In this document: positions 7,390-27,897 of the stretch, in pieces
Position numbering within the stretch: position 1 is the stretch's first letter
How the letters are laid out: every line of letters begins with the position of its first letter
Origin: Cystobacter ferrugineus
Lineage (GTDB): Bacteria > Myxococcota > Myxococcia > Myxococcales > Myxococcaceae
DNA: 64,000 nucleotides
NCBI RefSeq assembly: GCF_001887355.1
Contig: NZ_MPIN01000006.1
Location: 372,001 to 436,000 of the forward strand
Direction: 5' to 3'
The notes under the pieces: model-generated
Database searches by the model: none
What the model was told of the DNA's origin: nothing
What the model saw: the letters and a program-made list of their open reading frames with translations, nothing else
Made by a program: the position numbers and the translations under genes

Positions 7390-8550
7390 TCAGTGGAAGT
7401 CGTCGGTGTCGATGTCGGGCGGCACGGGGAGCACGCCCCGCTCCACGCCAGCGTGGGCGGCCAACTTGTCGAGGTCGGAGGCTTCCTTGAGAATCTCGGC
7501 CAACTCCTCCTCGGCGTCCTCCGCTCCGTAGGGTTGAAGTAATCCACGGAGGTAGGCGCGCAGTTCGTCGCGCAGCTCGCCCGCGGTCTGGTAGCGCTCA
7601 TCTGGGTTGGGGCTCAGCGCCTTGGAGACAATCTGCCGTAGCGGCGTCGGCACCTCCTCGGACATTCGTTGCACCTCCTCTGGGCCGAAGTGCAGCACGC
7701 GGTCGGCGAGCGTCTCCAGCTTGATGAAGGTGGGCACTTCGCTGCGGACTTCGGCCGGAAAGCGGCGCTTCACGTCACGCCACAGGGAGTCGGGCGGGTC
7801 GAGGGGGTAGCTCGCCAGGAGCATCTCCATCAGAACCAAGCCGACCGAGAATATGTCTGCGCGTCCGTCGAGATTCCTGGGAGTGAGCACGTCACGCTGG
7901 CCCGGCTCGGGCCGTAGGAAGCCCAGGAGAATCTCCGGAGCGATGTAGGAGGGATCCCCCCGAAGGAGTCCGTCCGGCGAGCGGATGCGGCCCAGCAGCT
8001 CCGAATAAGCGGCGCCGAAGTTGGTGACCTGGACGCGACCATTGCGCCCAAGGCGGATGCGCATGGGGCCCACGGCCCGGTGCACCAGGTGGAGAGGGCG
8101 GCCCGCTTCGTCCACGGCACGGTGCGCATAATCGAGCGCATCAGCCGCCTCGGCGGCGACGTAGGCCGCGAAGGCAGGAGACAGGCGGCGGCCCACGGCC
8201 ACGGCGGCGTCCATGGCGGTGAGGAGATAGCAGCCGCGCAGGTGCTCCATGGCGATGTAGGGCAGCTCGTTCCGCACCGCGTACCCGTACACGGCGGCGA
8301 TGTTGGGATGCCGTAAGAAACGGGCGAGACGCACCTCCTCGAGCACGCGCTCCAGTCCCTCACGGCCCGCTTCCAACACCACGGGCTTGAGTTCCACCAG
8401 CTTGACGGGCCCACCCTCCGCGTGTTGGCGCGAGGCGAGCAGCAGGGTGTCGTACTGGGGGTGAGTGACGAGGTGGCGCAAGGCGCTGTAGCGGTAGCCA
8501 CCGGACTCGAAGGTGAGGCGAGCAGCAGGGCCGCGAGAAGAGCGAGACAT
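7390..8550 (-). CDS. Ser/Thr kinase-like protein with lost catalytic residues (pseudokinase)
   Basis: A 386-residue protein with a recognisable protein-kinase fold: ATP-lysine position VELK (Lys55), helix-C Glu71/72, hinge IAMEHLRG, helical C-lobe, an APE-like GDPSYIAPEIL, and DIFSVGLVLMEML. The catalytic loop reads LVHRAVGPMRI, so the HRD Asp is Ala159 and the following Lys and Asn are also gone. DFG has become NFG at 177-179. There is no Gly-rich loop. It should therefore not phosphorylate efficiently. It lacks a membrane segment and so is cytosolic. The final 50 residues are acidic (PPDIDTDDFH). The gene lies 24 bases after the lipoprotein gene and 8 before the first XRE gene. It most plausibly acts as a scaffold or sensor within this operon. 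Confidence 0.85.
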   Translation of the reverse strand: MSRSSRGPAARLTFESGGYRYSALRHLVTHPQYDTLLLASRQHAEGGPVKLVELKPVVLEAGREGLERVLEEVRLARFLRHPNIAAVYGYAVRNELPYIAMEHLRGCYLLTAMDAAVAVGRRLSPAFAAYVAAEAADALDYAHRAVDEAGRPLHLVHRAVGPMRIRLGRNGRVQVTNFGAAYSELLGRIRSPDGLLRGDPSYIAPEILLGFLRPEPGQRDVLTPRNLDGRADIFSVGLVLMEMLLASYPLDPPDSLWRDVKRRFPAEVRSEVPTFIKLETLADRVLHFGPEEVQRMSEEVPTPLRQIVSKALSPNPDERYQTAGELRDELRAYLRGLLQPYGAEDAEEELAEILKEASDLDKLAAHAGVERGVLPVPPDIDTDDFH

Positions 8551-9189: not shown

Positions 9190-9746
9190 GACAACACCTC
9201 CGGTGTGTATGGGTTGCGGCTGGATTGTGCAGCTACGGGTAACACAGCCAATCGCAGAAAGAAAGCCCAGCACTACCGCCAAGGTTCCCATCCCTAGGCA
9301 ACCCGTCAGAGCAGCACAGCCCTGTTTTTGGGGGAGGACTGGTAGCCAAGGCGTTTCGTGACGTGAGGAGCCAGAAAACCTGGGTTACTCCTCTGGTAGC
9401 GCCCAGCCCCGAATATCGAGGCTCACGTGGTTCGCCGCGAGGCGGGCCCCGGGTCACCGCCATGTGTTCGTCGAGCAGTTCGGCGGCGAGAGGGCAATTG
9501 AGCGGGCACGATGACGCGCAGGTGAAACGAGGCGTAGAGCCGCGGTTCCGCACCCGCCGAAACGTATGTCCACGCCTCGGTATAAGCCGATGGCAGGGAC
9601 TCCCCTGCTGGCGTCGGCCAACCGACCGCCGCAGTCCTCCAACCCATTCAGAGGAAGCGCACCGCGACCGAGCGGGACCCGGGCCCATCCAGCCCGCATT
9701 CCGAGAGTTCGAGGCTCGCCCTCACTCATCGACAAGGAGGAGCACC
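9190..9746. other. Gene-free divergent spacer, possible left boundary of accessory element
   Basis: About 557 bases between two divergently transcribed genes. Open frames exist on both strands, but none has a convincing start signal, domain or codon bias, so I call no gene. It must contain the promoters of the lipoprotein-pseudokinase operon (leftward) and of the DUF932 gene (rightward), but no clear -35/-10 pair was recognised. The gene content changes from chromosomal-type signalling genes to phage/plasmid-type genes across this gap. I looked here for a copy of the tRNA-Leu 3' end and did not find one. Confidence 0.5.
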
Positions 9747-10724
9747 ATGCCTCACGACATCAACCAAATGGCCTACGTGGGCCAGGAGCCCTGGCATGGC
9801 CTGGGCACGCAACTGCCGGCCAACACCGACTACGAGTCCATCGTGGAGGCAGCCGGCTTCTACAGGGCGGAGGAGCGGCCCCTCTTCGCGCCGGGCAGGG
9901 ATGAAGCCATTCCGGACAAGAAGGCCCTCTTCCGCACCGATACGGGTGACTACCTCGCCACCGTCAACCGGGGCTACGAGGTGATTCAGTTCGAGGAGGT
10001 TGCCCGCACGCTCGTGGAGGCCGCGGGCGACGTGCGCTGCATCTTCCACACGGCGGGAACGCTCGGCCGCCACGGGGAGCGTGGATGGCTCCTGGGGGAG
10101 CTGCCCGAACCCATGCGCGTCCGGGGAGACAAGAGCATCATCAAGCGCTACGTGCTCGGCTACACCGGGCACGACGGAACCACCGCCATCACCCTCAAGA
10201 ACGTGGCCACGCGCGTGGTTTGCCAGAACACCGTTGGAGTCGCGCTCGGGGAGCGGGACGGGGCGGAGTGGCACATCCTCCACACCACGAGCGCGAAGGT
10301 GCGACTCGAGGAGGCGGGCCGTGCCTTCCGGCGCATGGTGCAGGACTACGAGCGCTTCGCCGCGCTTTCCGACCACCTCGCCATGACGCGCTTCAGCGAG
10401 CACCAGCTGCGCAACGTCATCGACGTGGTGATGCCGCTGCCCCAGGATGAGGCAGAACACCCGCGCCTGATGAAGGGGCGCAACAAGGTCATCGAGCTGT
10501 TCCACGCCGGCCGGGGCCTCGAAGGTTCCATCCGCGGCACCGCGTGGGGAGCGATCCAGGCGTTCAGTGAATACGCCGATCACCACCGGCACACCCGAGT
10601 CCCCAAGGGCAAGAACGTGGACACGTTGCGCCTCGAGTCCATCTGGATGGGCAAGGCGGCCAGCTTGAAGCGCCAGTCGCTGGCGGCCATCGCGGACACG
10701 GCTCGCATCCGGCTCTCGACGTGA
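9747..10724 (+). CDS. DUF932/TIGR03299-type phage- or plasmid-associated protein
   Basis: A 325-residue protein with AAGGAGG 6-7 bases before the ATG. The N-terminus MAYVGQEPWHGLGTQL is characteristic of the phage/plasmid-like TIGR03299 family (DUF932). The middle contains YVLGYTGHDGTTAI, TRVVCQNTVGVAL and a long C-terminal helical region with basic residues, as in family members. These proteins are carried by phages, plasmids and integrated elements across bacteria. Their role is unproven but they are often near replication genes. Here it stands alone on the plus strand at the left side of the putative integrated element, opposite in direction to most of the element's genes. Confidence 0.85.
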   Translation: MPHDINQMAYVGQEPWHGLGTQLPANTDYESIVEAAGFYRAEERPLFAPGRDEAIPDKKALFRTDTGDYLATVNRGYEVIQFEEVARTLVEAAGDVRCIFHTAGTLGRHGERGWLLGELPEPMRVRGDKSIIKRYVLGYTGHDGTTAITLKNVATRVVCQNTVGVALGERDGAEWHILHTTSAKVRLEEAGRAFRRMVQDYERFAALSDHLAMTRFSEHQLRNVIDVVMPLPQDEAEHPRLMKGRNKVIELFHAGRGLEGSIRGTAWGAIQAFSEYADHHRHTRVPKGKNVDTLRLESIWMGKAASLKRQSLAAIADTARIRLST

Positions 10725-10913: not shown

Positions 10914-11333
10914 TCACAGGTTGTCTGAGTAGCGCTGGCGCAGCTCGTTGGCCACCTCCTGCTCGTAGCGACCGTCCAGCCTTCCGCTCATGTTCATGGA
11001 GGTGACGACCTCCCGGAAGTCGAGCCGCCGGGATGCGTGTCCGAGCAACACCTCCGCGAGGTGCTCGTGGAAGAGCGCCTGCAGTTGCCGCTCCGATCCC
11101 CTCACCCGCTCGGCCAGCGTCTCACCGTGCACCAGCAGCTCAGCCCCTTCCCGCATCATCTGCTCGCGCACGACACGGCGAGCAGGCGCTCTGATGCCAT
11201 CACAGGCCACGAGGTAGCGGCGGTGATGGGCATCGTGTTCGCGCACCTGCCTCGGCAGCACCCGCGAGAAGGCGAAGTCGCACACCGGGCAGAGTTCCTC
11301 CCCGCTCGTCACGTCCATGGAACTGCTACGCAT
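10914..11333 (-). CDS. Small zinc-finger-like protein, paralogue of 18594-19070
   Basis: A 139-residue protein. I chose the ATG at 11333 because GGAG lies 6-7 bases upstream and it overlaps the previous stop by 8 bases. A Cys pair (CPVC) is followed by HDAHHRRY, giving a C2H2-like metal site near the N-terminus. The rest is helical with EGAELLVHGETLAERVRGS and LFHEHLAEVLLG. The same order (CSTC, HATYHARV, EGDQLLRHGATLDEKLRGA, LYDREVLHCL) appears in the protein at 18594-19070. The two genes flank the helicase/PLD operon. Function is unknown; DNA binding or host-process modulation is possible. It is the last gene of a three-gene minus-strand operon. Confidence 0.65.
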   Translation of the reverse strand: MRSSSMDVTSGEELCPVCDFAFSRVLPRQVREHDAHHRRYLVACDGIRAPARRVVREQMMREGAELLVHGETLAERVRGSERQLQALFHEHLAEVLLGHASRRLDFREVVTSMNMSGRLDGRYEQEVANELRQRYSDNL

Positions 11334-11700
11334 GGGGAGCTCCAATGGTCGGGCTCACCGATTCCTCGTCTCTCGCCGCAGTCCAGGGGAGCGGTGGGGC
11401 CACCTCGATACGCCGCCGGTTCCGTCCGCGCCAGCGCGTACACCGCGTGCAGCCCCAGCCGTACCACATGACGCAGCCCAGTACGTTCACGAGAGCACCG
11501 CACCCCATGCGCGGGCAGACGAAGAAGACACGCTCTCCGCCGAAGCTGGTGGGGCTCTCCACTCGCACGAGCTGCACCTCCGCCTCGAAGCCGAACTTCT
11601 CCAGCCGAATGGACTTCGCCTCGCGGAAACGCATGGGCTTCATCTGCGCCCTCACCATCGGCAATGTGACACGTGAGACTTGGTCGCGGTAGATCGCCAT
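11326..11700 (-). CDS. Small protein with C-terminal zinc-ribbon-like cysteines
   Basis: A 124-residue protein with GGAGGTGAGGA just before the ATG at 11700. This ribosome-binding sequence overlaps the end of the preceding gene. The first 75 residues are basic with beta-strand-like repeats (FGFEAEVQLVRVESP). The C-terminal half carries VCPRMGCG and CTRC, four cysteines that could bind zinc, followed by a basic tail (RWRGRNRRR). The signature suggests a small nucleic-acid-binding protein of a mobile element. I recognise no named family. The stop overlaps the start of the downstream zinc-finger gene. Confidence 0.6.
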   Translation of the reverse strand: MAIYRDQVSRVTLPMVRAQMKPMRFREAKSIRLEKFGFEAEVQLVRVESPTSFGGERVFFVCPRMGCGALVNVLGCVMWYGWGCTRCTRWRGRNRRRIEVAPPLPWTAARDEESVSPTIGAPHA

Positions 11701-12372: not shown

Positions 12373-12528
12373 CTACTCCCCCAAGTCCTCCACCGAGATG
12401 TCGCCGCGCCGGAGCCCGTCGATGACGTCATCGAAGTCAGCGTGAATGCGTTGGAGCTGGGCGCGGTGATGATGGGCCGGGTCGGTGGCTCGAGGGCGAC
12501 GGAGGAGGGCAAGGAGGCGATGGAGCAT
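12373..12528 (-). CDS. Small acidic-tailed ORF (51 aa), trailing the helicase operon
   Basis: A 51-residue frame on the helicase strand, 76 bases downstream of the helicase stop. The N-terminus is basic and leucine-rich (MLHRLLALLRRPRATD). The C-terminus (LQRIHADFDDVIDGLRRGDI, then SVEDLGE) has the look of a real amphipathic helical protein with strong amino-acid order. No Shine-Dalgarno is seen before the ATG at 12528. It may be a fourth, regulatory member of the helicase/PLD operon or an independent small gene. Coding is plausible, not proven. Confidence 0.4.
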   Translation of the reverse strand: MLHRLLALLRRPRATDPAHHHRAQLQRIHADFDDVIDGLRRGDISVEDLGE

Positions 12529-12604
12529 GATCCAGCATAGGACACTGGTGATTCTTTCTAATGCTGGGAACGTTTCATTTCCTAGAGTCCATTCCGAGGA
12601 TCTA

Positions 12605-15307
12605 TCAGGACCGGGACCTCCCGCGAGAACGGCCCGGATCGAAGTTGGGAGCCGCAGCGCGCAGCTCTTCGCGTAGCCCTTCCGGAACGGACTCCCAGGC
12701 CTCCGCCGGTAGCAGACTGCCGAACAAGGTCGCGTCGAAGGTGTGCTGGCGCTGCCCGACACGCTCCCACTGGAAAGCATCGTAGGTCCCTTCAAGCATC
12801 ACTTGGCGGACCTCGATGAGCGGCATCGACTGATCTCCCCGGTCCTTCTTCCACTCCTCGTAGAGCTGCCACCAACGGCTGTTCAGCCGATCCACGCGGC
12901 CGATCTGCTGTTCAAGAACGGCCGGGTTCCATTCCGCGTGGAACTGCACCACCACCCGGCAGGCCTTGTGCAGGTTGAGGCCCTCCCTCCCGACTTGGCT
13001 CTGCGCGATCAGCACGCGGGGAAAGCCGTGCGGCCGGTTGAAGCCGGCCTGCAGCGAGCGCCGCGTCTCCCACTTGGTGCTGCCATCCATCAGCCGACAG
13101 AAGCCGGTCTGCCGGCCCTGGACCTCATCCCATTCCAGGTTGATCCATTGGGCGAGCCGCGCGCACCGGTCCTCGTTGCTCTCCTCATTCTCGGCCGAGG
13201 CCTCATCAGTGCCGGTCGCCGGGAGAATGTGATCCCGCCAGATCTCCTGGACCAGTTCGTCGACAACCCGGGCTCTTGGCGGCTCGGAGCGTCCCCCCGC
13301 CAACCACTCATCCAGCACGAGGGTTCGGATGATGCCACGCAGGCGTTCGCGGCTCAGCGCATCAAGGTCAGAAAACTGTTTGACTACCCGCGCATCGATC
13401 CGTACTCGGACGTTCTCAGCGATGGCGTCTTGCACCCGCTCGTACTGACGATGCGCCTTCTCCGCCAGCTCGCGAAATTCCTCGATGGAGAGTGGAGCGT
13501 TCCGCAGCTTCCCGGTCAATCTCCCCGCCTTCCGCATCCGCTCGGCGCTCCGGAACGCAATCGCTAGGAGCCGCGAGTTCTCGTGAAGCGAGAAGGCGAT
13601 GGGCGCATCCTGGTCGATGGAACGAACGCAGTGTCGCGCGTTGAGGACATCGCGCAGATCTCTCATCGGCCGGGTGAACACGCCAAAGGCGAGGACCTTC
13701 TCCGACACCGCGCGATCGGTCCACGCCTCGATCGCCTCGACCGCGCTCAGGATCCGCGGGTGCTCGGTATTCGGATCGTAGCCCTCCACCCCGGCGTCCC
13801 GCGCGCCTTGCTCCAGCGATTCCCGCGCCTCGCGGAAGAGCCGCCGCCAGTATTTCAGCCGCTCCAGCTTCGCGGCAGTGGCGGGAGGGAGCTCGGAGGG
13901 AATCTCCGTGAGCCAGCTCTCGTCTTCCAGATCGTCCACGCTGACCAACCCATTGGCGAGCTTGGTGTAGATCAGCTTGGCCCACTGCGCCGTCTTGCCG
14001 AGCACCGCCGCATCCAGCCCCTGGGCTGCGTGCGAGTAGCCTTCGAGCGCAGAGAGCATGGTGCGCCAGTTCGTGCTCTCGCTCTCGGCCAGATCCCGTA
14101 GGGATACGAGGTGGCGCTTCACCTGACGATGGGGTTGGGCTAGCTCCCACGCCTCGGGCCGGTGGGCGCGCAACTCCTGGAGCTGCGCCTCGCTGAAGAG
14201 ACGGCGACGGGTGACGAACGGCGCGAGCACCGCCTCAAAGCGCCGGGCAGCATCAATGAGCGCGCGCAAAGTCGATGGTTGGTCAGGCGCGGTCTTGGCG
14301 GACTCCAGACACTGGCGCAGGTCGTCCACGGCACGTTGAACCGGCTCGGGTCGAGCTCCCGTCCGAGCCCGGGACAGCAGATCGCCCCAGTCCGCCGCGT
14401 CCAGTTCCATCGGCGTCGCGGACAGGCAGATCCGCCGCCCTTCCTGATCCTGCTGGAGCATCGCGAGCAGCGCGGGCAGCAGCTTGGTGGCTTGCCTTGT
14501 AGAGGAGCCCGTCTCGTCCGAAAGGGTCTCCTCGCGGCTCTTATGAGCCTCGTCGATCACGATCAGGTCGAAGTGCCCGAGCCACGCTCCGAGCAGCTCG
14601 CAGACGAGCTCACGGGCATCTCCGTCACCGAAGAAGCGCTCGCACAGCGGCTGGTTATTGCCGTTAGGCACGAACAAGGGAAGAGACAGGAGGCGGCTCC
14701 GTAGTTCTGGCGCCCCGTCGACATGGGGAGCCACGCGCTTGGCGATCCGAACCAGGTTGTGCCACCGCCACCACTTGCTCGCGTTCTGCTCGACATAGCG
14801 CGCTAAACGGCCGAGTTGCGTGCGTCCATGCTCGCGAGCGTCAGGCGACTCGCTGTAGAGCTGCACCAGCGATGGGAGCGCGATCGACCAGTCGCTCCGG
14901 CTCGTCACCTTCGGGTAGCGGAAGCCGTGCGAGATGAGCCACCACTCCGGCTCGGACGACGGCGAGGGGCTATCCTCCCCGAGCCACTGAGACAGCGTGG
15001 TGAGTTCCTTGGGCGCCAGGGCCTCGCCGAAAAGGATCCGGAACTCGGCACGCCACTGGTGCATCAGCCCACGCGGCACCAAGGCCGCCACCCGCCCGCC
15101 ACAGTCCAGCACCGCCTTAATCACCGCACAGGCGATGCGCGTCTTTCCCGTGCCCACCTCGTCGGCGACAATCACTCCGTGCCGAGGCAACCGTTCGGCC
15201 ATGAAGGACAACGTTTCCTGCTGCTCTCGGCTAAACGCCTTCGGGTACTCGATCCCGATCTCCTCGATCCGGCGGGCAACCTGGCTCCATTCCATGGTGC
15301 TCTTCAT
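12605..15307 (-). CDS. SNF2/HepA-like superfamily 2 helicase, defence-operon candidate
   Basis: A 900-residue ATP-dependent helicase/translocase. Visible motifs: Q-like FSREQQETL (about 25-33), Walker A VADEVGTGKT with Lys55, DEAH near residue 252 (DLIVIDEAHKSREE), LSATPM near 296, QSQVGREGLNL near 770, and QIGRVDRLNSR near 801. The DEVGTGKT form and the GREGLNLH...QQIGRVDR C-terminal pattern are typical of SNF2/RapA-like DNA translocases used in host defence (DISARM-type and similar), rather than replicative helicases. A large insert (about 310-700) separates the two RecA-like halves. The ATG overlaps the stop of the PLD gene by 4 bases (ATGA). It is the last large gene of the three-gene operon. 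Motor function is secure; the defence role is inferred from the gene set. Confidence 0.88.
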   Translation of the reverse strand: MKSTMEWSQVARRIEEIGIEYPKAFSREQQETLSFMAERLPRHGVIVADEVGTGKTRIACAVIKAVLDCGGRVAALVPRGLMHQWRAEFRILFGEALAPKELTTLSQWLGEDSPSPSSEPEWWLISHGFRYPKVTSRSDWSIALPSLVQLYSESPDAREHGRTQLGRLARYVEQNASKWWRWHNLVRIAKRVAPHVDGAPELRSRLLSLPLFVPNGNNQPLCERFFGDGDARELVCELLGAWLGHFDLIVIDEAHKSREETLSDETGSSTRQATKLLPALLAMLQQDQEGRRICLSATPMELDAADWGDLLSRARTGARPEPVQRAVDDLRQCLESAKTAPDQPSTLRALIDAARRFEAVLAPFVTRRRLFSEAQLQELRAHRPEAWELAQPHRQVKRHLVSLRDLAESESTNWRTMLSALEGYSHAAQGLDAAVLGKTAQWAKLIYTKLANGLVSVDDLEDESWLTEIPSELPPATAAKLERLKYWRRLFREARESLEQGARDAGVEGYDPNTEHPRILSAVEAIEAWTDRAVSEKVLAFGVFTRPMRDLRDVLNARHCVRSIDQDAPIAFSLHENSRLLAIAFRSAERMRKAGRLTGKLRNAPLSIEEFRELAEKAHRQYERVQDAIAENVRVRIDARVVKQFSDLDALSRERLRGIIRTLVLDEWLAGGRSEPPRARVVDELVQEIWRDHILPATGTDEASAENEESNEDRCARLAQWINLEWDEVQGRQTGFCRLMDGSTKWETRRSLQAGFNRPHGFPRVLIAQSQVGREGLNLHKACRVVVQFHAEWNPAVLEQQIGRVDRLNSRWWQLYEEWKKDRGDQSMPLIEVRQVMLEGTYDAFQWERVGQRQHTFDATLFGSLLPAEAWESVPEGLREELRAAAPNFDPGRSRGRSRS

Positions 15308-17238
15308 AGGCCCCAGCTCCGGAGCGCATGTTCGAGGATGCGGCGGTAGCGCTTAGCCTGGACCGGGCTCATGCCCGGCGGGCGGAAGCCATTGGCTCGA
15401 AGCACGTCCGAAAAATTGATTCCCAAGCCGCGCCAAGCCGCGACCTGCTCCGGCGCGAAGCTGGCCGGCAAGCCTGTCTCCAGGTGGTGGAGCCAGTCCT
15501 CCAGCAGATCCGCCGCCAGACCGCTCTGGTGCGCGCCAAGGCGATCGATGAAATGCATGGCCGTGTGGAGCGGATACTGGCGCGGATCTGCCTGAGCGCC
15601 CCCACGCCGGCGCCCCGCGGGCTCATCCGGGGGATCGCCGGAGTCATTGTCCTGACCCTCTAGCCATTCGTCCTCATCATCCCCCTCGGACTCGATGGGG
15701 AACTCCAGCAGCGCGTCCAGTGCCTCGTCGAATGCGCAAGCAGACGGGGGCGGCAGGCAGAAGTGGCCCAGCTCGCTCTCAACGGGAATGGCCCACGCAG
15801 TCCCATCTCCCCCGACAATGGAGACCTCGACAGTCGCCGGGAATCGCCCGTCCGAAACGGGCACGCTCTCGCCGGGACGGACCTCCATGCGCGAGCTACC
15901 CGCCGCCCACCAGAGCGCAACCATGGTCCCGGACTCGACGTCGTCGCGCCAGACCAACTCAAGGCGAGGGCCCCCACCCTCTCGATCCGAGCGGGCCCGA
16001 GCAATCAGGAGCGGCGGGACACCGATGAGCTGCGCGAGTTCCACATCCGCCTCAGAATCCGGCCCTTTTTCGACCAACTCATCGGCGGGAAGGGAATCCT
16101 CGGAAACGAAGAGCGCCTCAAGGAGCGCCTCACGCGGTACCGACTCCGCAACCCGAAGGAAAACGCCTGTTTCCACGTTCCCTCGAGCGTCGGCCGAGAG
16201 CAGCAGGCCCCGCCGCGTGAGGTTGCCCGAGCCGAGGTAGAGCCAGCCATTGCTGCAGCTCGCCTCGCGCTGGTAGCCCACGTAGATGAACTTCGCGTGC
16301 AGGTCGCGCCCAGTCGCCCCCCTCGCGTCTGGATCGTGCGAGCGCACAAGGTCCCAGCCTTCCGTCTCGATATTCTCCGTCCACCAGGAAGCGAGGGCTC
16401 CGGCGTTGGCCGGCTCGGCAGCGAGGAGCCGCGCGGCCGTCGGTGCCGCCAGGCTCTCAAGCTTCTGGAGAACCTCAGGCTTCCGGCCACGCCGCTTCTC
16501 GGGCGGCGGCTCCTCGAACGACCCCGAACCGCAGACGAGCAGATTCTTGCGCTGACCATCCTCGGTAGCAAGGTGCCGCCGGAACTGCTCGAACAGCGAG
16601 TCATCCCAGGAGTGGAGGAAGCGCCGCCGGGGATGGCTCGGTTCGAGCGCGACGACCTGATCCAGGAGATCGTGGTAACGCCGGGCGAGGAGAGAGCGCG
16701 ATTCTCCACGCATCGGGACGTGGTAGCGCGCTGCGAGCCTCTGGATGAAGGATCCAGCAGAAGATAAATCGGACAGCTCCTCAATGGAGCCCTCGAAACC
16801 CTCTGGACCGCGCGAGACGTCGACCTTCCACAGCAGCTCGAGCTGGTGCCGGGAGGAGCGCTCGGTCCAGTTAGCGGTGGTCACCCCGAGCCGCAGTACG
16901 CTGGCCGCGCCGTGCCGGCCCGGTCCAAACGCGAGCAGGGCGACCTTGGCATGGAGCAGGTTCTCGCGGGCGGCGTCGCGCGGCTGAAGTTCATGGAGAC
17001 CGGGAACGTCGAGCGGATTGAAGGTGCGCTCGCGGTTCGCGGTCGGGTGAGCGTCGAGGAAGAGATAGGCAAACGGGCATCCGGCAGCAGCGCGGCGCTG
17101 GCGCCCAATGCCGGTGAACCGATGAAGCGCTGAGTCGAGAAACCCCCGCGTGCCGCTCATGGCCACCAGGATCGCGGTCTGGCCCATGAGCCCGTCCGGC
17201 GGGGTGAAGAGATCGAGAAGCGTGGTGCGCGCGCTCAC
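15304..17238 (-). CDS. Phospholipase-D superfamily protein with Tdp1-like HxK...N motifs
   Basis: A 644-residue protein with two half-sites. First: LLHAKVALLAFG (His96, Lys98) followed by GVTTANWT (Asn123). Second: DLHAKFIYVGYQ (His314, Lys316) followed by LYLGSGNLTRRG (Asn339). In both, the Asp of a classical HxKxxxxD motif is missing and an Asn 25-27 residues later takes its place, as in tyrosyl-DNA phosphodiesterase 1. It may act on DNA or DNA-protein ends. An acidic, low-complexity stretch near 540-565 (DDEDEWLEGQDNDSGD) and a C-terminal helical domain follow. It starts with GTG, whose GTGA overlaps the stop of the upstream gene, with GGAGAG as ribosome-binding site. It shares an operon with the helicase, so coupled DNA translocation and processing is likely. 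Confidence 0.82.
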   Translation of the reverse strand: MSARTTLLDLFTPPDGLMGQTAILVAMSGTRGFLDSALHRFTGIGRQRRAAAGCPFAYLFLDAHPTANRERTFNPLDVPGLHELQPRDAARENLLHAKVALLAFGPGRHGAASVLRLGVTTANWTERSSRHQLELLWKVDVSRGPEGFEGSIEELSDLSSAGSFIQRLAARYHVPMRGESRSLLARRYHDLLDQVVALEPSHPRRRFLHSWDDSLFEQFRRHLATEDGQRKNLLVCGSGSFEEPPPEKRRGRKPEVLQKLESLAAPTAARLLAAEPANAGALASWWTENIETEGWDLVRSHDPDARGATGRDLHAKFIYVGYQREASCSNGWLYLGSGNLTRRGLLLSADARGNVETGVFLRVAESVPREALLEALFVSEDSLPADELVEKGPDSEADVELAQLIGVPPLLIARARSDREGGGPRLELVWRDDVESGTMVALWWAAGSSRMEVRPGESVPVSDGRFPATVEVSIVGGDGTAWAIPVESELGHFCLPPPSACAFDEALDALLEFPIESEGDDEDEWLEGQDNDSGDPPDEPAGRRRGGAQADPRQYPLHTAMHFIDRLGAHQSGLAADLLEDWLHHLETGLPASFAPEQVAAWRGLGINFSDVLRANGFRPPGMSPVQAKRYRRILEHALRSWGL

Positions 17239-18515
17239 GGCAGGCTCTCCATGTCACAGTCCTGGACCAGAGAGAAGAGGTTGGCGAGCCGGAAGGTGCG
17301 ACCGCTGTCGCTGCGCGCGTCGAGGTCAGTGGTACCGTCGTGCTCCTCTGGACGGCTCTCCTCATCGTCGAGCACGCGAAACAAGGGCCCGCGGTGAATT
17401 TCGCCGTCACTGAGCTGCAGCACCTGCTCGTCGCGCGAGACAATGAATTCAAGGAGCGTGCTATCGCCAGAGCACCGGGAGATCTGGTCGACGAAGCTGG
17501 AGGCGTCGGCGGACCCGGCTCCCGGCAGCTTGTCGTGGCACCTCCGATAGTCGCTCGCGGCCTCCCGCAGGGCTTTCGAGGCAATCCGAATTGCCTGCAG
17601 GCTGGCGGCATCCGCGGGGGACACGGACTTGGCTCGCTCCAGCACCCGAGTGAGGAGACCGAGCACCCTCAGCGCGGTGGAGAAGACGCTGCCAAAGCTC
17701 CGGGCCAGCGCAATCTCGGAGGACTGTTGCGCGCCATCCCTCTTCCGCAGTTCGGGGAGGAGGTCCCGCTCGATGTCCGGGAATTCGCTTTCGCCCAGGA
17801 AAATCTCAGCGAGCGCGCGGCGCTTGTGGCCGGCCGCATCGTTAGTGCCAACAAGCCGCTTCCAGACGATCTCACGCTCCTCTTCGGAGGCTCCGGTGGG
17901 CGCGAGCGCCTTCGTCAGATTAGTGCCCCACGAGGGAGCCTGTCCGTCAATCCACCGCTCCAGCCATCTCTCCAGGGTCTGCTTGCCGGTCCCTGCCGGT
18001 TGAGCAAGGAAAGCCTGGGCCAGCTCCATGCCGACAGAGGTTAGACGCATCGAACCGAATCGGAAACCACTGGCGAGCCCGAGCCCTGACTCCGTCCGGA
18101 TCGCGCGCACGGCGGCCTGCCGATAGGTGTTCTGGACGTAGTGAGCACGAGTACGGAGCTGCTCATAATCCCAGGTCCGTCCGCCATCGCGGTTGAACGC
18201 GCGCACACCGATGATCCGGTCGGAGCTGACGCCAGAAGCGTGCTCCAGCTTGCAGGCGAGCGCCTCGATACCATGGGCGAGATCCGTGGGGGTTCGCCCG
18301 CGAGCGCCCTCAGCTTTGACCTGGGCGTGCAAAGTCAGCGCCGCAAGGGGCCAGCTCAACTGACGGAGGAACCAGGCCCGCCCGAGACCCGGGACCACCA
18401 ACTCTCGGAAGTGGAGATCCGCGCTGCGTAAGCCAAGCGTGAGGCTGGCCCGCTCGGAGAAGGCCTCACTGGCCGCGAGCTGGTGCCAAGGGAAGAGAAA
18501 ATCGGTCTCGGTCAT
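17235..18515 (-). CDS. Uncharacterised 426-residue protein, first gene of helicase/PLD operon
   Basis: No named domain was recognised with certainty. The N-terminus has LRSADLHFRELVVPGLGRAW, FLRQLSWPLAAL, and then a helix and SSDRIIGVRAFNRDGG. This order resembles DUF6361 proteins (a PG...RARYFLF-like stretch, then an IGxRA stretch), which also occur beside PLD and helicase genes. I regard it as a possible distant relative. The middle and C-terminus are helical and charged. There is no signal peptide or membrane segment. It starts at the ATG at 18515 without a strong Shine-Dalgarno and overlaps the PLD gene by 4 bases. As the first gene of the operon it may provide target recognition or regulation. 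That is inference. Confidence 0.7.
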   Translation of the reverse strand: MTETDFLFPWHQLAASEAFSERASLTLGLRSADLHFRELVVPGLGRAWFLRQLSWPLAALTLHAQVKAEGARGRTPTDLAHGIEALACKLEHASGVSSDRIIGVRAFNRDGGRTWDYEQLRTRAHYVQNTYRQAAVRAIRTESGLGLASGFRFGSMRLTSVGMELAQAFLAQPAGTGKQTLERWLERWIDGQAPSWGTNLTKALAPTGASEEEREIVWKRLVGTNDAAGHKRRALAEIFLGESEFPDIERDLLPELRKRDGAQQSSEIALARSFGSVFSTALRVLGLLTRVLERAKSVSPADAASLQAIRIASKALREAASDYRRCHDKLPGAGSADASSFVDQISRCSGDSTLLEFIVSRDEQVLQLSDGEIHRGPLFRVLDDEESRPEEHDGTTDLDARSDSGRTFRLANLFSLVQDCDMESLP

Positions 18516-18593: not shown

Positions 18594-19070
18594 TCAAGCG
18601 CCATGCAATGACCCTGGCTGCGTCACCGCCCTGGGCTCCTCCCAATGCCGCTCCTCAGTTGGACCTCTCGCACAAAGCCCGTGTTGCCGCAGCACATGGG
18701 GAGCTACCTCCTGCCCAACGACGGCCGCGAGGTCCACGGTGAGGAGGAAGCTCGTGAAGGAGGGCGTCTGCCCAGGCCGCGCACGGTGAAGGCAATGGAG
18801 GACTTCGCGGTCGTACAGCGCAGTGAGCACCAGGTCCGCGCCGCGTAGCTTCTCGTCCAGCGTGGCACCGTGGCGGAGCAATTGGTCGCCCTCGTCCTTC
18901 TGGCGCTCCTGCTCTCTCCGGCCTGCGGGTCGGCGTCCGAGGCGGACGGCCAACTTGTCGACACGAGCGTGGTAGGTGGCGTGCCAGCGCCGGTCTCCAG
19001 CGTCGGCTGGGGCGTAGCCCAGATCGCAAGTGGAGCAGCGCACGGAAGAAGGGATGTAGTTGTCGTACAT
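18594..19070 (-). CDS. Small zinc-finger-like protein, paralogue of 10914-11333
   Basis: A 158-residue protein with a Cys pair (RCSTCDLGY) and HATYHARV, giving a C2H2-like metal site. A charged helical region follows (EGDQLLRHGATLDEKLRGAD, LVLTALYDREVLHCLH). The motif order and spacing match the protein at 10914-11333, so they are paralogues. GAGG lies about 7 bases before the ATG. The gene lies between the candidate replication-origin repeats and the helicase/PLD operon. Function unknown. Confidence 0.65.
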   Translation of the reverse strand: MYDNYIPSSVRCSTCDLGYAPADAGDRRWHATYHARVDKLAVRLGRRPAGRREQERQKDEGDQLLRHGATLDEKLRGADLVLTALYDREVLHCLHRARPGQTPSFTSFLLTVDLAAVVGQEVAPHVLRQHGLCARGPTEERHWEEPRAVTQPGSLHGA

Positions 19071-19494: not shown

Positions 19495-21246
19495 TCAGGC
19501 CACGGCAGGCGGCTGGGTGGCCCCATCGGAGAAGTTCGCGTCATCACCCTGCGATCTTTGTCCCAGGGACGGCTGCGGCTGCGCGTCCTGCTGACAGGTG
19601 TCGTCCGGTGCCCGTAGGGGGATGCCCACCCACGACCGCACCTGCACTCCGCCCTGCCGCGGCTTGCCATTCGTCACTGCGGGTATGACCTCCTTGAGGG
19701 CGTCCCACAGCTTGTTGCCTCCCGTGGGCTTCAGCTGGTGACGGCGGCACCAGTCCGTGTACACATCGCAGGCCACGTCAGAGGGCACCCAGTCCTTTCC
19801 GTCCCATTGGAGGGTCGGCTCGCGCACCTCGTCCCGACGGGCTGCAATCACCCAGGTACTGGAGACGCTCAGCCAGCCGTCCTCCTTGACTTGGCGCCAG
19901 AACTTCAGACAGCTGGCCTCGCACTCGCGTAGCAGCCACTTCCGGGCGTCGGTCTCATAAATATCGCCCACCTTCACCTTGACGTCACGCTCGAGCAGGT
20001 GCGCATAGAAGGCAGCCAGCTGGACGCGCGGCCCCTGCCGATCCTCGGCAATGCGCCGCCCCATCTCCCGGTCCAGCGGCTTGTCCTGGAAGAAGAGGAC
20101 GTTGCGCCGGTCCCCCTTTTCCAGGATGAGAGGACGCGGGTCGTTCGTGCAGTTGAGCAGGTTGAACAGGTTGGTGAAGGTGCCGGCCTCGACGTGCTTG
20201 GCCTCGCCGGACAACCGCGTGTCAGTGGCCATGGCCTTGAGTTTGTTTGCCGTCTCGCGCGAGCGGTTGGTGTCGCTCATCGTCTCGTTGAGCACGACGA
20301 AGACCTTGTTCTTCAACACGCCGGTGAACTTCGAGTCGAGCCGGTCCTGGTCCAACACCGCGCAGTTGGCCTCGCCGTACATCGCGAAGAGTGCCTCGTA
20401 GAGCAGCTGCTTGCCCGAGCCGTGGGCCGGGTAGAGCGTGGGGATGATGCCTGTCTTGAGCGGCTTGCCTTCCTTGGCCAGGCGCTGTAGCGGCATGGCA
20501 AACTGGTCGAGCAGATAGTCCTGGGCTTTGCGGTCGCCCCCTACCAGATGGAGGGTGAGCGCGTCGTAGTCCGACCAGTCACCGAGCACCGGCTGGAGCG
20601 TCGAGGGCCGGTACTCGTTGAAGAACCAGATGCCCTTGTGCGGGACGATGGGCTCGCGCGAGTCCGGGAAGAACCCTCGGCGGCTGAAGCGGCGGATGCT
20701 GGAGAGAAAGTCATGCGCAGAGGTGCTTCGCACCTGGGCGAAGCGTCCGTGCCAGTGCTCCTCAAAGGTCTTCTTCGCAGTCACCTCCGTGTCCCACTCC
20801 CCGTCATCGTCACGCTCGATGTAGCCACCGCGCTTGGTGTCGAAGAGGAACCGCTCCGGCTGCGCTTCTCGCTCGAACTGGAGCTCCTGGAGCACCTGCT
20901 GGAGTGGTCCCTGATTCACCACAGGGCAGCAGTTGGGCGGGGCGCCGAGTTCCTGGAGCTCGATGAACAAGACCGGCTGGGCGGGTGCGGCGTCGTACTG
21001 ACTGCCGCACTGGGCGGTCAGGGGAGCGTTGGCGAAGTACGCTTTAAACTCGGTCTTGCCCTCAGCCACGAGCGCAGGAACACCATTGGCGGATGCCTTG
21101 ATGATGGAAGCCAAGGCGGTCAGCAGGTCCGGGCTGAGGCGCGAGGGGCGGTCCTTCAGCTCCTCGAAGATCTCGGTCTTGAACAGCCGTCGGCGCACCT
21201 CGACGGCCTTCGCAGTGGACACCGCGACAGAGAGGGCGCTGGTCAT
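19495..21246 (-). CDS. D5/DUF5906-type superfamily 3-like replicative helicase
   Basis: A 583-residue protein whose ATG at 21246 overlaps the primase stop (ATGA) and is preceded by GGGAGGTG. The Walker A is YPAHGSGKQLLYEAL (about 271-285) and the Walker B VFVVLNETM (about 312-320). A further motif LLNCTNDPRPL follows at about 360, which is the order of phage/plasmid D5-like or NrS-1-type helicases. The N-terminal 230 residues precede the ATPase domain, and a C-terminal domain (WCRRHQLKPTGGN) resembles the winged end of such proteins. Along with the adjoining AEP-type primase it forms a two-gene replication initiator. This module is used by plasmids, phages and satellites. The candidate origin follows directly downstream. 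Confidence 0.8.
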   Translation of the reverse strand: MTSALSVAVSTAKAVEVRRRLFKTEIFEELKDRPSRLSPDLLTALASIIKASANGVPALVAEGKTEFKAYFANAPLTAQCGSQYDAAPAQPVLFIELQELGAPPNCCPVVNQGPLQQVLQELQFEREAQPERFLFDTKRGGYIERDDDGEWDTEVTAKKTFEEHWHGRFAQVRSTSAHDFLSSIRRFSRRGFFPDSREPIVPHKGIWFFNEYRPSTLQPVLGDWSDYDALTLHLVGGDRKAQDYLLDQFAMPLQRLAKEGKPLKTGIIPTLYPAHGSGKQLLYEALFAMYGEANCAVLDQDRLDSKFTGVLKNKVFVVLNETMSDTNRSRETANKLKAMATDTRLSGEAKHVEAGTFTNLFNLLNCTNDPRPLILEKGDRRNVLFFQDKPLDREMGRRIAEDRQGPRVQLAAFYAHLLERDVKVKVGDIYETDARKWLLRECEASCLKFWRQVKEDGWLSVSSTWVIAARRDEVREPTLQWDGKDWVPSDVACDVYTDWCRRHQLKPTGGNKLWDALKEVIPAVTNGKPRQGGVQVRSWVGIPLRAPDDTCQQDAQPQPSLGQRSQGDDANFSDGATQPPAVA

Positions 21247-22316
21247 CGCACACCTCCCTGGCGGGCGCGAAGACAGAGCCGTGCAGCGTGGATGAGTGAA
21301 GTGGCCCCGGCGGACCAGTGCTCCTTGGGCATGCCGCTGGCCACCATATGCGCGAAGGTCATGGGACCAACGGCGCCTACGGAGTCGATGGCTCCCTGAA
21401 ACGTCCTCTCGCACTCGGTGAAGCGATAGCCTGCGTAGTTCTCGCTCAACTTGTGGAACTCCTGCCGGGCCCGTTCGAGGAGGTCCGGGTGCTCATGGAC
21501 CGCGCAGGCGAGGTTCTGGCCGACGCCCCGCCACGTCTCGCGATCCACGTCGTCAGGCTCCTCGCGCATCCAGCGAATGACCGGGTGGCACAACATTTCC
21601 ACGAGCAGCGCTTGGCTCTCGGTTCGAGAGGTGGTTGCCGTGTGCTCGCCCTGCTTGTGACGACGCTTCGACTTCAGACCCACCGCCGTGGCTGACGGAA
21701 CTGGCGGCTGGAAGCCTTCGGGGGCAGGGTACGCGTTGAGCACCTCGGCAATGGAGTAGCGCTCGCTACCAGCACGCACCAGTTGCACAAGGACAGGGTC
21801 GACAGGGTCCTTCATGTGAAGGAAGCCCGGCACACGCATGACGCGCGGCAGATCCTTCACCGCCGGATCCGTCCCAAAATGGGCGGCGAGCGCGGCCTGG
21901 GCCGACTTGAATGCAGGCAGTTCTTCGCCTGGTGCGAGGCTCCAGTAGTGATGCCACCCCTTCCGGGTGCGCACCGTGAGCGTAGGCAGCAGCGCGGCGA
22001 GCCGCAGCGAGTCCGGAGGCAGCAGACCCTTGTCGTCGTCGATGAAGAGGGCGCGCAAGGCAACCACGTTCTCGGCGAGCCGCCGCTCGCTGTTGCCCTC
22101 GTTCACCTGAAGGAAGACGCCCAGGCCGCAATTGAGGTTCTCCCAGCACAGCCAATCCCATGCCTTGTCGGTGAGCGCCCACCAGTGAGTGGCGTTGCGT
22201 GCTGCGGGCGCAGTGGCGGAGTCGGCCACGAGTTGCCAGAGAACCTCGGTGTCTGGCGCGCCAGTGAGGCCGGCAATGAAAGTAAGTGCCATATCGCGGT
22301 TGGGGGCGGGGCTCAT
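21243..22316 (-). CDS. Archaeo-eukaryotic-type primase/PrimPol (RepB-primase-like)
   Basis: A 357-residue protein with the AEP landmarks: metal-binding ALFIDDD (Asp93-95), a GWHHYWSL motif (His122-123) and a third motif around LPRVMRVPGF (about 155-164). A helical C-terminal region follows. The first 90 residues contain a Trp/Cys-rich stretch (HWWALTDKAWDWLCWENLNC). It should prime, and possibly extend, DNA at the element's origin. Its stop overlaps the start of the helicase gene and its start overlaps a tiny ORF upstream (22313-22316), so the replication genes are translationally coupled. This AEP plus D5-helicase pair matches replication modules of integrated phage-like elements. Confidence 0.78.
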   Translation of the reverse strand: MSPAPNRDMALTFIAGLTGAPDTEVLWQLVADSATAPAARNATHWWALTDKAWDWLCWENLNCGLGVFLQVNEGNSERRLAENVVALRALFIDDDKGLLPPDSLRLAALLPTLTVRTRKGWHHYWSLAPGEELPAFKSAQAALAAHFGTDPAVKDLPRVMRVPGFLHMKDPVDPVLVQLVRAGSERYSIAEVLNAYPAPEGFQPPVPSATAVGLKSKRRHKQGEHTATTSRTESQALLVEMLCHPVIRWMREEPDDVDRETWRGVGQNLACAVHEHPDLLERARQEFHKLSENYAGYRFTECERTFQGAIDSVGAVGPMTFAHMVASGMPKEHWSAGATSLIHAARLCLRARQGGVR

Positions 22317-22895: not shown

Positions 22896-23750
22896 TCATC
22901 GGCAGTTGGCCTGAGCCGGTATCCCTGGCACCTCGCGCCGCCGCAGCTCCTCCGGCCACTCAATCCAGTCACCGCCGTGCCGGTCCTGCAGTTCGAGGCG
23001 CTGGCCCTTCTCTACCGGGTGCTCCCCCAACTGCTTGAGGAAGTACGGCACCCCCGCTGTGGTGCACTCCGCGACGAGGCTGCGCGCCCAGTCCAGGTCG
23101 AAGGGTCTGGCGCCCAGTCCCGACTCGCCGCCCTGGATGACCCAGTCCAACTCGGGCAGCCACTTGGCGAGGCTGATGGGCTCTACCTGCGGCTCCACGG
23201 AGAGGAAGCGCGTCGTCCGCGCATCGCCCACCTTCAGCAGGCTTGAGATGCGCTCGAGTGACTTTGCGTCGGTGATGCTGGTACCCACCCAGAGGTTCTC
23301 CGGCCAAGGCTGACCGAGGGCAGCCAACCACCGGGAGAACTCCGCCATCCGGGACGGTCGCTTAGTGAGCCAGAGCCATCGATGCCGCTGGCCTTCTGCG
23401 CTCGTCACGACCGCGATGATCTCCGACTCGAGGTACTCGAAGGATACCCCCTTCGAGAGCGCATCAGACATGTCCGAGACGAAGATGAGACGCGGCGAAC
23501 CGTCGAGCCACGGATTGTCGGAGCGAGAGCAGCCGGCGAGGTCCGTCCAGCGAGCGGCCTGAGCCATGCGGCCGGGGAAGCGCGTCACCTGCGCGAACGA
23601 GGGCGCGTAGCCGGTACGCCCCCCGTAGCGATCGTGCAGCTTGCCCGCGTAGCAGGAGCGCCGCTCGGGTACCCACAGCTCGCAGCCGTTGCACCCCATG
23701 GTGGGATTCACCGTGGAGTCACACCACTGGATGGTCGTGGTCTTGGACAT
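22896..23750 (-). CDS. DUF5131 (phage Gp37/Gp68-like) family protein
   Basis: A 284-residue protein with the family landmarks: TTTIQWCDSTVNPTMGCNGC, a second Cys (SCYAG), RLIFVSDMSDAL, RHRWLWLTKRP, NLWVGTSITD, FLSVEPQVEPI and WVIQGGESG. This is the phage Gp37/Gp68 family, found in phages and mobile elements. The conserved Cys residues (WCDST, GCNGC, SCYAG) suggest a radical-SAM or metal-cluster protein, but the biochemical role is unproven. It follows the upstream gene by 2 bases, so both are in one operon, itself upstream of the replication genes. No truncation is visible. Confidence 0.88.
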   Translation of the reverse strand: MSKTTTIQWCDSTVNPTMGCNGCELWVPERRSCYAGKLHDRYGGRTGYAPSFAQVTRFPGRMAQAARWTDLAGCSRSDNPWLDGSPRLIFVSDMSDALSKGVSFEYLESEIIAVVTSAEGQRHRWLWLTKRPSRMAEFSRWLAALGQPWPENLWVGTSITDAKSLERISSLLKVGDARTTRFLSVEPQVEPISLAKWLPELDWVIQGGESGLGARPFDLDWARSLVAECTTAGVPYFLKQLGEHPVEKGQRLELQDRHGGDWIEWPEELRRREVPGIPAQANCR

Positions 23751-23752
23751 GC

Positions 23753-24661
23753 TCAGACCCCCTCCAGCATCGCGTGGGGAGCCTCAGCCGGCGGCGTCTC
23801 GGTACCGTCGATTTTCGGGACGTCCCGAAAATCTCCCTCCTGCTTGGGATCGGTCACCGCAAGGGCGTGCTGCACGTGCTTGAGTTCGGCAGCGAGCAGT
23901 TCCTCGTTACGCGAGCACAGGTCCCGCGCCTTGGCCAGCTTCGCCATTGCGTTGAGGATGACGCCCACCAGAGCTTCGGTGGGTTCGGCCGACACCATGG
24001 GCTTGAGCTGATCCTCCAGCCCGTCGCACCTCGTGAGGAAGTGCTCCAGATTGGACACCAGTTCCGTGAGGGCGGCACACGGCCGGTGAGCGGGAATCAC
24101 GGCAGACTCGCTCCTCGTGAGAGCCGACGACCGCGTGCAACCAGCGCCAGACTGTCCCGCCTCAGAAGTGGTTCCCGCCCCCTCGTCGATGAGGGCGGAG
24201 AGCCTGCGAACCGACAGGCCATCCTTCAACGCTCGTTTGAACATCTGCTCCCGCTTCTCCGGCAGCTTCACCCGCGCAAGCTCGACGAAGTGGGAGAACG
24301 AGAGCCGAGGGCGCTCGGCGTCCCCTCTCCTCACCAGCTCGCTGAACTCCGACTTCCCCCACGTCCGAGCGACAGAAGCGGCGCCATATAGAGCGTCCTT
24401 CTTGAATCCAGAGCCCAGCTTGGCGGACAGCATCTCCACAGCGTGGCCACCGTACTTCCCCTCGTCCCCCTGAACCTCGCGGACGAGCTCACCAACCCGG
24501 TACTTCATCAGCACATCGTGCGCCTTCGCGCGGGCCTCGAGCTTGCGCAGCTGCTCGTACACCTCGCGCAGCTCCGGGCTCATCTCGCCCGCGGACTTCG
24601 TCTTCTTGCCCCTCTTGCTTCCCTCGGTGGACACCGAGAGGGAGTTCCTGCTTTTGGACAT
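23753..24661 (-). CDS. Uncharacterised helical protein of the mobile element (DUF1016-N-like?)
   Basis: A 302-residue protein. I chose the ATG at 24661 because a purine-rich GGAGGCGGGATGG lies upstream. It starts with a basic, Ser-rich tail (SVSTEGSKRGKKTKSAGE). Residues 30-160 are helical (YRVGELVREVQGDEGKYGGH, then LSAKLGSGFKKDALYGAASV, and SHFVELARV), in an order like the N-terminal region of DUF1016/YhcG proteins, though the match is weak. The rest is charged with an Ala/Glu-rich C-terminus. It is the first gene of the leftward operon that ends with the primase and helicase. I recognise no firm function; it could bind nucleic acid or act as a partition or regulatory protein. Confidence 0.5.
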   Translation of the reverse strand: MSKSRNSLSVSTEGSKRGKKTKSAGEMSPELREVYEQLRKLEARAKAHDVLMKYRVGELVREVQGDEGKYGGHAVEMLSAKLGSGFKKDALYGAASVARTWGKSEFSELVRRGDAERPRLSFSHFVELARVKLPEKREQMFKRALKDGLSVRRLSALIDEGAGTTSEAGQSGAGCTRSSALTRSESAVIPAHRPCAALTELVSNLEHFLTRCDGLEDQLKPMVSAEPTEALVGVILNAMAKLAKARDLCSRNEELLAAELKHVQHALAVTDPKQEGDFRDVPKIDGTETPPAEAPHAMLEGV

Positions 24662-25373
24662 AAGTAGCCATCCCGCCTCCCCCGTTGAGGGGTGAGGCGA
24701 CACCTGCAATGGCGACGCGAGAGCGCCGTGAAGGGCGCTACGCGTCGCGATGTTCATGCCGCCAAGGCGCTGAAGCGCGCGGGGCGGCGAGATGCGCTCG
24801 GTACACGAGCGCGGTCATTGGCATTGGCGTGTGCGGCCAGGACGCACGGACGACCCGCAGGACTTCTGCGGATTAGTAGATTGCAGTCACCGCCCCATCC
24901 ACCGGGGGCGGCTGCGCTGGCAACAACATTGGCGACTATACGTACTGCAACGGCCGTACTGCTTTGCATCCTGCTGTGCGCGCAGGAGGGGTGAGGATTA
25001 ACGCAGCGACCCTACCTCGCGCAAGTCGCTCCACCTTGGCACGCTGACCGCCTCTCCCTGACTCCTGGCCGCGTAGAGCCTCGAAATCCCTACCGAATCG
25101 CGCATGACCGGTTGTCGAGCCTGATGTACTTGAAACGCATCTCAACCGCCTACAGCTCGCTTGCTCACCTGATTCGTCCCCCGGAGCCCGAGTACGAAGA
25201 GGACGGTTCCAACCGCGAAGGGCGCGTAGTCCGAAGAGGCGCGAGGGACGTGGGTATAAGCCCTGGGGCAGAGCACCCGTCTTCCCCACCATCGTCCGCT
25301 GGCGCGCTGCCACACACGCGCACGCGAACCCTTGCTGGCCTCCGTGCACCTGCCGGAGGCGGAGGACCAACCC
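24662..25373. other. Gene-free divergent region between the two arms of the element
   Basis: About 712 bases separating the leftward replication operon from the rightward integrase arm. Short frames (for example near 24685-25001) have no domain, no good start and no codon bias, so none is called. Several short inverted repeats with GCGCTACGCG-type symmetry are visible at 24720-24760. The region should contain divergent promoters and probably operators for the element's switch, but no -35/-10 pair was clear. Confidence 0.45.
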
Positions 25374-26400: not shown

Positions 26401-26688
26401 ATGGACCGGCACCTCGCCGTTGGACGTGCCTGCGTGCCCGGGCGCGAACGTGGCGTCGTGTCCCAGCAGAACAACGAAGCAGGAGCCTCCGCCTCCCTCC
26501 CGGAAGTGCTCACCGTGGAGGAGGCCGCAGCCTTCCTGCGGGTGAACCGGAAGACCCTCTATGAAGCCGTCCGCCTGGGCAGCGTCCCGGGTGTCATCCG
26601 CCTGGGTAGGGTCATCCGCATCAACAAATCTGCCCTGGTAAGTTGGGTCCAGGGTAACGGCGGTCCTGCGCTCGGAGAGAAGCGATGA
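26401..26688 (+). CDS. Excisionase-type helix-turn-helix protein
   Basis: A protein of at most 95 residues with an excisionase/MerR-like (HTH_17) domain in its second half: VLTVEEAAAFLRVNRKTLYE, then GSVPGVIRLGRVIRINKSAL. The stop overlaps the integrase ATG by 4 bases. The exact start is uncertain: ATG at 26401 or GTG at 26458, neither with a good ribosome-binding site. It should assist directionality of site-specific recombination by the downstream integrase. This small HTH plus tyrosine integrase order is standard for integrated elements. Confidence 0.75.
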   Translation: MDRHLAVGRACVPGRERGVVSQQNNEAGASASLPEVLTVEEAAAFLRVNRKTLYEAVRLGSVPGVIRLGRVIRINKSALVSWVQGNGGPALGEKR

Positions 26689-27767: not shown

Positions 27768-27811
27768 CGCGGGACGGGAGAGAATCCTCAGTGAGTTCAA
27801 GCACTTAGGAA

Positions 27812-27897
27812 TGCACGAGCCGGGGATCGAACCCGGACGGCCCCTTCGGGCCAGCGGATTTTAAGTCCGCTGCGTCTGCCAGTTTCGCCACTCGTGC
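27812..27897 (-). tRNA. tRNA-Leu (anticodon UAA), attachment-site host
   Basis: An 86-base tRNA on the minus strand. The acceptor GCACGAG pairs with CTCGTGC and the discriminator is A. The anticodon stem-loop is GCGGA CTTAAAA TCCGC with anticodon TAA. A long variable arm (GGCCCGAAGGGGCC) is as expected for leucine, and the T-loop is GGTTCGATCC. CCA is not encoded. Its 3' end faces the integrase gene 44 bases away, so the 3' end probably is the attachment site. No second copy of this 3' end was found leftward, so the other end of the element is not located. The match to the tRNA-Leu consensus is unambiguous. Confidence 0.95.

Follow-up and report, generated by a model that had tools for sequence, protein, structure and literature searches.

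A mobile three-gene operon in Cystobacter ferrugineus that pairs a Tdp1-fold protein and an SNF2-type helicase with an unrecognized helical protein: a probable Azaca-like defense system

A stretch of 64,000 nucleotides from the 12 Mb genome of the myxobacterium Cystobacter ferrugineus (hereafter the window) carries, on its minus strand, an operon of three genes (12605-18515) that is a real, mobile and conserved unit whose members are co-inherited and translationally coupled. The first gene (gene 1, 17235-18515) encodes a mostly helical protein of 426 amino acids (aa) from an unrecognized family; the second (gene 2, 15304-17238) a 644-aa PLD-superfamily protein with the fold of Tdp1; and the third (gene 3, 12605-15307) a 900-aa SNF2-type SF2 helicase/translocase. 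We favor, with moderate confidence, the interpretation that this is an Azaca-like anti-phage or anti-mobile-DNA system carried as cargo by an integrative element. The operon is a genuine, unnamed and mobile system of the Azaca kind, probably with an anti-phage role.

The three genes were delimited as open reading frames (ORFs). Genes 1 and 2 share exactly four bases (17235-17238), as do genes 2 and 3 (15304-15307). The SF2/SNF2 motifs of gene 3 are complete and invariant in 16 relatives (DEVGTGKT at residues 49-56, DEAH at 252-255, LSATP at 295-299 and QIGRVDR at 801-807), while gene 2 contains two paired motifs, H96/K98 and H314/K316. In all these respects – three genes on one strand, exact junction overlaps, an SNF2-type helicase and a two-motif PLD protein with their motifs – the original prediction for this DNA agrees with what was found. 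It agrees likewise on a 51-aa ORF behind the operon (12373-12528, minus strand), which is known from its translation only and which nothing ties to the system.

Evidence that the three genes are one functional unit comes from linkage, recurring overlaps, purifying selection and concordant trees. In all 18 loci whose contig extends far enough, drawn from several bacterial phyla, gene 1 is followed by the PLD gene; the helicase gene comes next in all 16 loci tested, and the three genes keep the same order at 60%, 40% and 27% identity. Among relatives, the four-base overlap between genes 1 and 2 recurs at 14 of 15 junctions, and that between genes 2 and 3 at 10; in Paracoccus versutus pBEN, genes 1 and 2 make up a single 1004-aa frame. 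When 72,556 plasmids were searched independently with gene 1 and gene 2 as queries, both searches returned an identical set of seven records, and the corresponding search with gene 3 returned the same seven plus two more, both decayed remnants. The ratio of nonsynonymous to synonymous substitution rates (dN/dS) lies at ~0.2-0.3 for all three genes in the two pairs compared, with dS near saturation in the more distant pair, and the three gene trees share 7-8 of 12 deep splits (0.15 expected with shuffled labels). Because all three genes are under purifying selection and their order is conserved, the operon stands far beyond chance.

The neighborhood, whose conservation had been proposed as a check, thus consists of linked genes in the same order among relatives, with a few degenerate copies. 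A fossil of the operon in a genome of the same genus (G001, L011:9568-9802) has gene 1 residues 222-261 abutting helicase residues 776-824; the copy on Novosphingobium pSA1 (L027:10583-13082) is degenerate, with an insertion within the PLD gene; and in that on P. aminophilus pAMI8 (L072:5299-8131), also degenerate, an IS5-family element adjoins a truncated helicase. Relatives occur in Corallococcus and Archangium (both members of the host's family), in Thiocystis and Allochromatium, in several metagenome-assembled genomes (MAGs) including a Bryobacterales MAG, and on seven plasmids (from Desulfosarcina, Rhodobacterales, Novosphingobium and Pantoea). One contig in IMG/VR has the gene set; among phage records no relative of the gene 2 PLD was found. 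Of 193 related genomes, 4 contain gene 1, in one case as a remnant.

The nature of the second protein is indicated by its AlphaFold2 model, which was built with 11 relatives and is of moderate quality (predicted local distance difference test, pLDDT, 62.2). The model matches Tdp1 with a Foldseek E of 1.6e-8 and a VIA Z of 20.5 over 315 residues (root-mean-square deviation 4.0): the best 28 matches are human or yeast Tdp1 only, and the next fold is PLD3 at Z 16. The Tdp1 fold covers residues 1-378. Seven residues (H96, K98, N123, H314, K316, N339 and E356) do not vary across 16 sequences and, unlike in HKD enzymes, no aspartate follows the lysines; this doubled H-K-N set is the Tdp1 pattern. 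As modeled, then, gene 2 combines the Tdp1 fold with an HKN active site that is complete and invariant, in keeping with the Tdp1-like protein first proposed. It differs from Tdp1 in its identity (only ~12%), in an extra C-terminal region of ~260 aa, and in being encoded in a mobile bacterial operon together with a helicase and a novel protein. Pfam yields only a sub-threshold PLD match for gene 2, the PLD of one relative nears Tyr-DNA_phospho (E 1.4e-4, with 21.3 bits where the cut-off is 22), and a PDB sequence search with the PLD profile found nothing.

The same structural comparison, informative for gene 2, gave no fold match for gene 1. Its AlphaFold2 model is mostly helical (pLDDT 68.6), has no Foldseek match at E <= 0.001 and reaches VIA Z values of 6.4 or less, the background level among helical proteins. 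Nothing in PADLOC, Pfam or NCBIfam matches gene 1 above noise, PADLOC and Pfam likewise have no match for any of 18 gene-1 proteins, and a PDB sequence search with the gene 1 profile found nothing. From its residue pattern, the region ~117-170 (YV....R...L..LGL..G.RF....LT..G..L) is possibly winged-helix-like.

Among named systems the closest is Azaca (ZacA-ZacB-ZacC; PADLOC PDLC03828-03830), which Millman et al. are said to have described in 2022 and to which we take 'Zac' in PADLOC to refer. The original prediction did not name it, and compared the operon with DISARM and Dpd instead. According to a review, Azaca includes a PLD-like domain (PMC10952713). Six authentic ZacA loci retrieved for comparison all read ZacA-ZacB-ZacC, the order of the operon: in both systems an uncharacterized protein, a PLD-type protein and a helicase follow one another on one strand. 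ZacB is the best and almost the sole PADLOC match of gene 2 (1.5e-10), the PLD family as a whole matches ZacB (10 of 16 members) and almost nothing else in PADLOC, and ZacB itself has a pair of HxK motifs that lack the aspartate of HKD enzymes (FHPK..SRNLT, LHAK..GSAN). A comparison of the PLD and ZacB profiles gives a probability of 93.6% (E 2e-7), and the first protein of each system is of similar size (426 vs about 400 aa). On this evidence the operon could simply be Azaca, with gene 1 a ZacA that has diverged past sequence recognition; we regard this as unlikely. The match of gene 2 to PDLC03829 (ZacB) extends over 99 of 586 positions only, the profile alignment over the first HxK half only, and that of gene 3 with ZacC (probability 97.6%) is confined to the helicase C core: the similarity of PLD and helicase to ZacB and ZacC is restricted to core motifs. 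Moreover, gene 3 matches ZacC at 1.9e-13, and PDC-M27C, BrxHI and DrmD score better.

The two ZacA proteins scanned are DUF6361 (E 3e-67 and 1e-76), a family that gene 1 had been thought to resemble in pattern; however, 0 of 18 gene-1 proteins match PDLC03828 or DUF6361, and hhalign of gene 1 against ZacA gives a probability of 0.1% (E 0.4, 23 columns) at the same alignment depth that detects the PLD and helicase links (the alignments are shallow, with an effective sequence number, Neff, of about 3). The resemblance therefore fails, and identity of gene 1 with DUF6361/ZacA was rejected. By sequence profiles there is no detectable kinship between the two (folds were not compared), and they possibly share a fold. 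Searches of 369 Gammaproteobacteria with gene 1 and with ZacA had no genome in common, and a ZacA search of IMG/VR returned none. The operon would thus work like Azaca, but its first gene shows no match to ZacA, the sole Azaca-specific test of membership that sequence permits.

Gene 3 is of little help in this respect: its hidden Markov model matches are scattered over PDC-M27C, BrxHI, DrmD, DpdE and ZacC, and the helicase alone therefore cannot place the system. PDC-M27, the best PADLOC helicase match (7e-23), was set aside after a PDC-M27B search of 369 genomes gave weak partial matches only. Taken together, the PADLOC comparison that had been suggested returned ZacB for gene 2, many helicases for gene 3 and nothing for gene 1. 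DISARM (DrmA/DrmC/DrmD) and Dpd (DpdE/DpdK) likewise combine a PLD protein with an SNF2-type helicase, to which gene 3 is akin (DrmD/DpdE) over core motifs, but both are poor fits, worse than Azaca. The PLD matches DrmC in single members only (E 0.01-0.06), and neither a methylase or DUF1998 protein (DrmB), as in DISARM, nor 7-deazaguanine synthesis or insertion genes, as in Dpd, were found among the operon and scanned neighbors – absences already remarked upon at the outset. PbeABCD is also a defense cassette with PLD plus helicase, but there the two are joined in one protein (PbeA) linked to Dnd phosphorothioation (PMC6459918), whereas in the operon they are separate and have no such link. 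The original proposal that this exact set of genes belongs to no named system holds within PADLOC-DB 2.0.0 (the release of 2023) and the open-licence papers searched.

A further comparison concerns CglI and NgoAVII, in which cutting by a PLD nuclease requires both ATP and its SF2 partner, and which also possess a C5-methylase, a B3 DNA-binding domain and a Z1 helicase (PMC4267653). Given the common division into a PLD nuclease subunit and a separate SF2 ATPase subunit, the operon might encode an ATP-dependent restriction nuclease of this type, with the self-protecting modification encoded elsewhere. However, it has no C5-methylase, B3 or Z1 Pfam match (for Z1, in gene 3), and no methylase lies in or adjoining the operon among annotated or scanned neighborhoods; we consider such an arrangement extremely improbable.

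A role in defense is suggested by the surroundings of relatives, many of which adjoin defense genes: BREX pglZ/brxL, GmrSD_C, Mrr_cat and Fic, along with DUF2779, are found beside them. Defense neighbors combined with patchy, sometimes broken copies make up the pattern of defense cargo. The proposal of a candidate defense system is therefore supported by the context of relatives, while its comparison with DISARM and Dpd gives way to the closer Azaca. The main functional rival is DNA repair or adduct removal: the Tdp1-like enzyme would clear protein-DNA adducts with the SNF2 remodeler, and so aid replication or transfer of the element rather than defense of the cell. The Tdp1 fold with an HKN active site speaks for such a module, as does its carriage on elements and plasmids that also encode replication and transfer functions; but occurrence beside BREX, GmrSD, Mrr and Fic on replicons unrelated to one another, absence from most relatives (the 193 genomes above) and the existence of decayed copies make it very unlikely. 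The defense interpretation has its own difficulties: no certified defense system adjoins the operon in its own element, the neighbors in the closest relative (Corallococcus) are an HD/LuxR gene and a subtilase, gene 1 has no recognizable fold, the models of genes 1 and 2 are both moderate, and the Tdp1 fold suits DNA repair too.

Other genes recur beside the relatives. A double-AAA+ ATPase family is found in at least five loci (L019:3885-6914, L020:3762-6404, L024:6614-8851, L029:5891-7975 and L045:135-2138), some members having a winged helix, and may be an accessory module of the operon; WYL regulators occur in several loci. Some loci have an ADP-ribosylglycohydrolase, or a pair consisting of a PD-(D/E)XK nuclease and a UvrD helicase, which on Rhodobacterales plasmids lies just ahead of gene 1 in the same orientation, separated from it by a small gap or none (L025:3258-9004, L028:3258-9007 and L030:3205-8945).

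We read the operon as a helicase-driven nuclease defense system whose first subunit is unrelated to that of Azaca. The proteins of genes 1 and 2 would form a complex, as their fused frame in one plasmid suggests, and the SNF2 motor would move this complex along invading DNA, or load it onto it. Gene 1 may act as the adaptor that contacts DNA or a partner and determines specificity. The Tdp1-type nuclease would cut through a covalent phosphohistidine, independently of metal, and, by analogy with CglI/NgoAVII, would do so upon engagement of the motor. The scanned neighborhoods showed no modification gene, and since the operon contains no modification enzyme, discrimination of self from non-self would probably depend on the structure of DNA (ends, replication intermediates, adducts) rather than on methylation. 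An alternative version, in which a true Tdp1-type phosphodiesterase effector acts on 3'-phosphoryl or protein-linked DNA ends arising from phage or plasmid replication or transfer, with gene 1 a new all-helical adaptor family that recognizes these ends and the sensing subunit unrelated to that of Azaca, is in our estimate quite unlikely.

The element that contains all three operon genes is inserted in a tRNA-Leu gene and bounded by 26-bp repeats. A repeat search restricted to the window found none; a genome-wide search located attR (27809-27834, no strand), which overlaps the 3' end of the target tRNA-Leu (TAA) (27812-27897, minus strand), and attL, the same 26 bases, outside the window (G000:C6:342910-342935; L054 9911-9936). 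Beside attR lies a tyrosine recombinase gene, the integrase (26685-27767, plus strand; PF00589, 4e-35). Chromosomal DNA common to two genomes of the same genus (G002 and G003) begins exactly at window position 27809, within the 3' end of tRNA-Leu(TAA), and in both genomes the left and right flanks join over exactly the 26 bases: both therefore have an empty site, and together with the positions of attL and attR they give an element of 56.9 kb. The integrated element postulated earlier is confirmed by these data.

On either side of the operon, as first described, stand two zinc-finger paralogues, real though with weak or modest scores to Pfam zf-C2H2_3: a 158-aa protein upstream of gene 1 (18594-19070, minus strand; 4.3e-7) and its counterpart (10914-11345, minus strand; E 0.0055). 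Two overlapping replication genes, a DUF5906/phage-type DNA primase and a RepB-type primase, occupy 19495-22316 (minus strand). Adjacent DUF5131 (PADLOC PDC-M41B, 8.7e-41) and DUF1016_N (PDC-S02, 4.8e-13) genes at 22896-24757 (minus strand) are, from these profile matches, a second candidate defense or mobile-element pair, and a one-strand run at the other end of the element (L054:11754-19348, G000:C6), with a ResIII/DEAD helicase, a TPR-repeat protein kinase and unknowns, may be another cargo system. The element also holds a DUF932/TIGR03299 phage- and plasmid-type protein adjoining the cargo (9363-10724, plus strand) and two protein-kinase genes (3695-5854 and 7390-8550, minus strand). Copies related to the integrase-end module (26500-27717) at ~70% identity are found in the same genome (C2, C10, C30, C38 and C6:662-663k), and the element family is therefore multi-copy here.

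The operon represents an unnamed mobile three-gene family, missed by PADLOC-DB 2.0.0, that ranges over myxobacteria, Desulfosarcina, Alpha-, Beta- and Gammaproteobacteria and an acidobacterial MAG. Its composition suggests that a Tdp1-fold nuclease and an SNF2 motor constitute a reusable defense core that can be combined with first subunits of unrelated origin, namely DUF6361 for Azaca and a new helical family here. If this is true, comparing the operon with Azaca would reveal the subunit that senses the invader.

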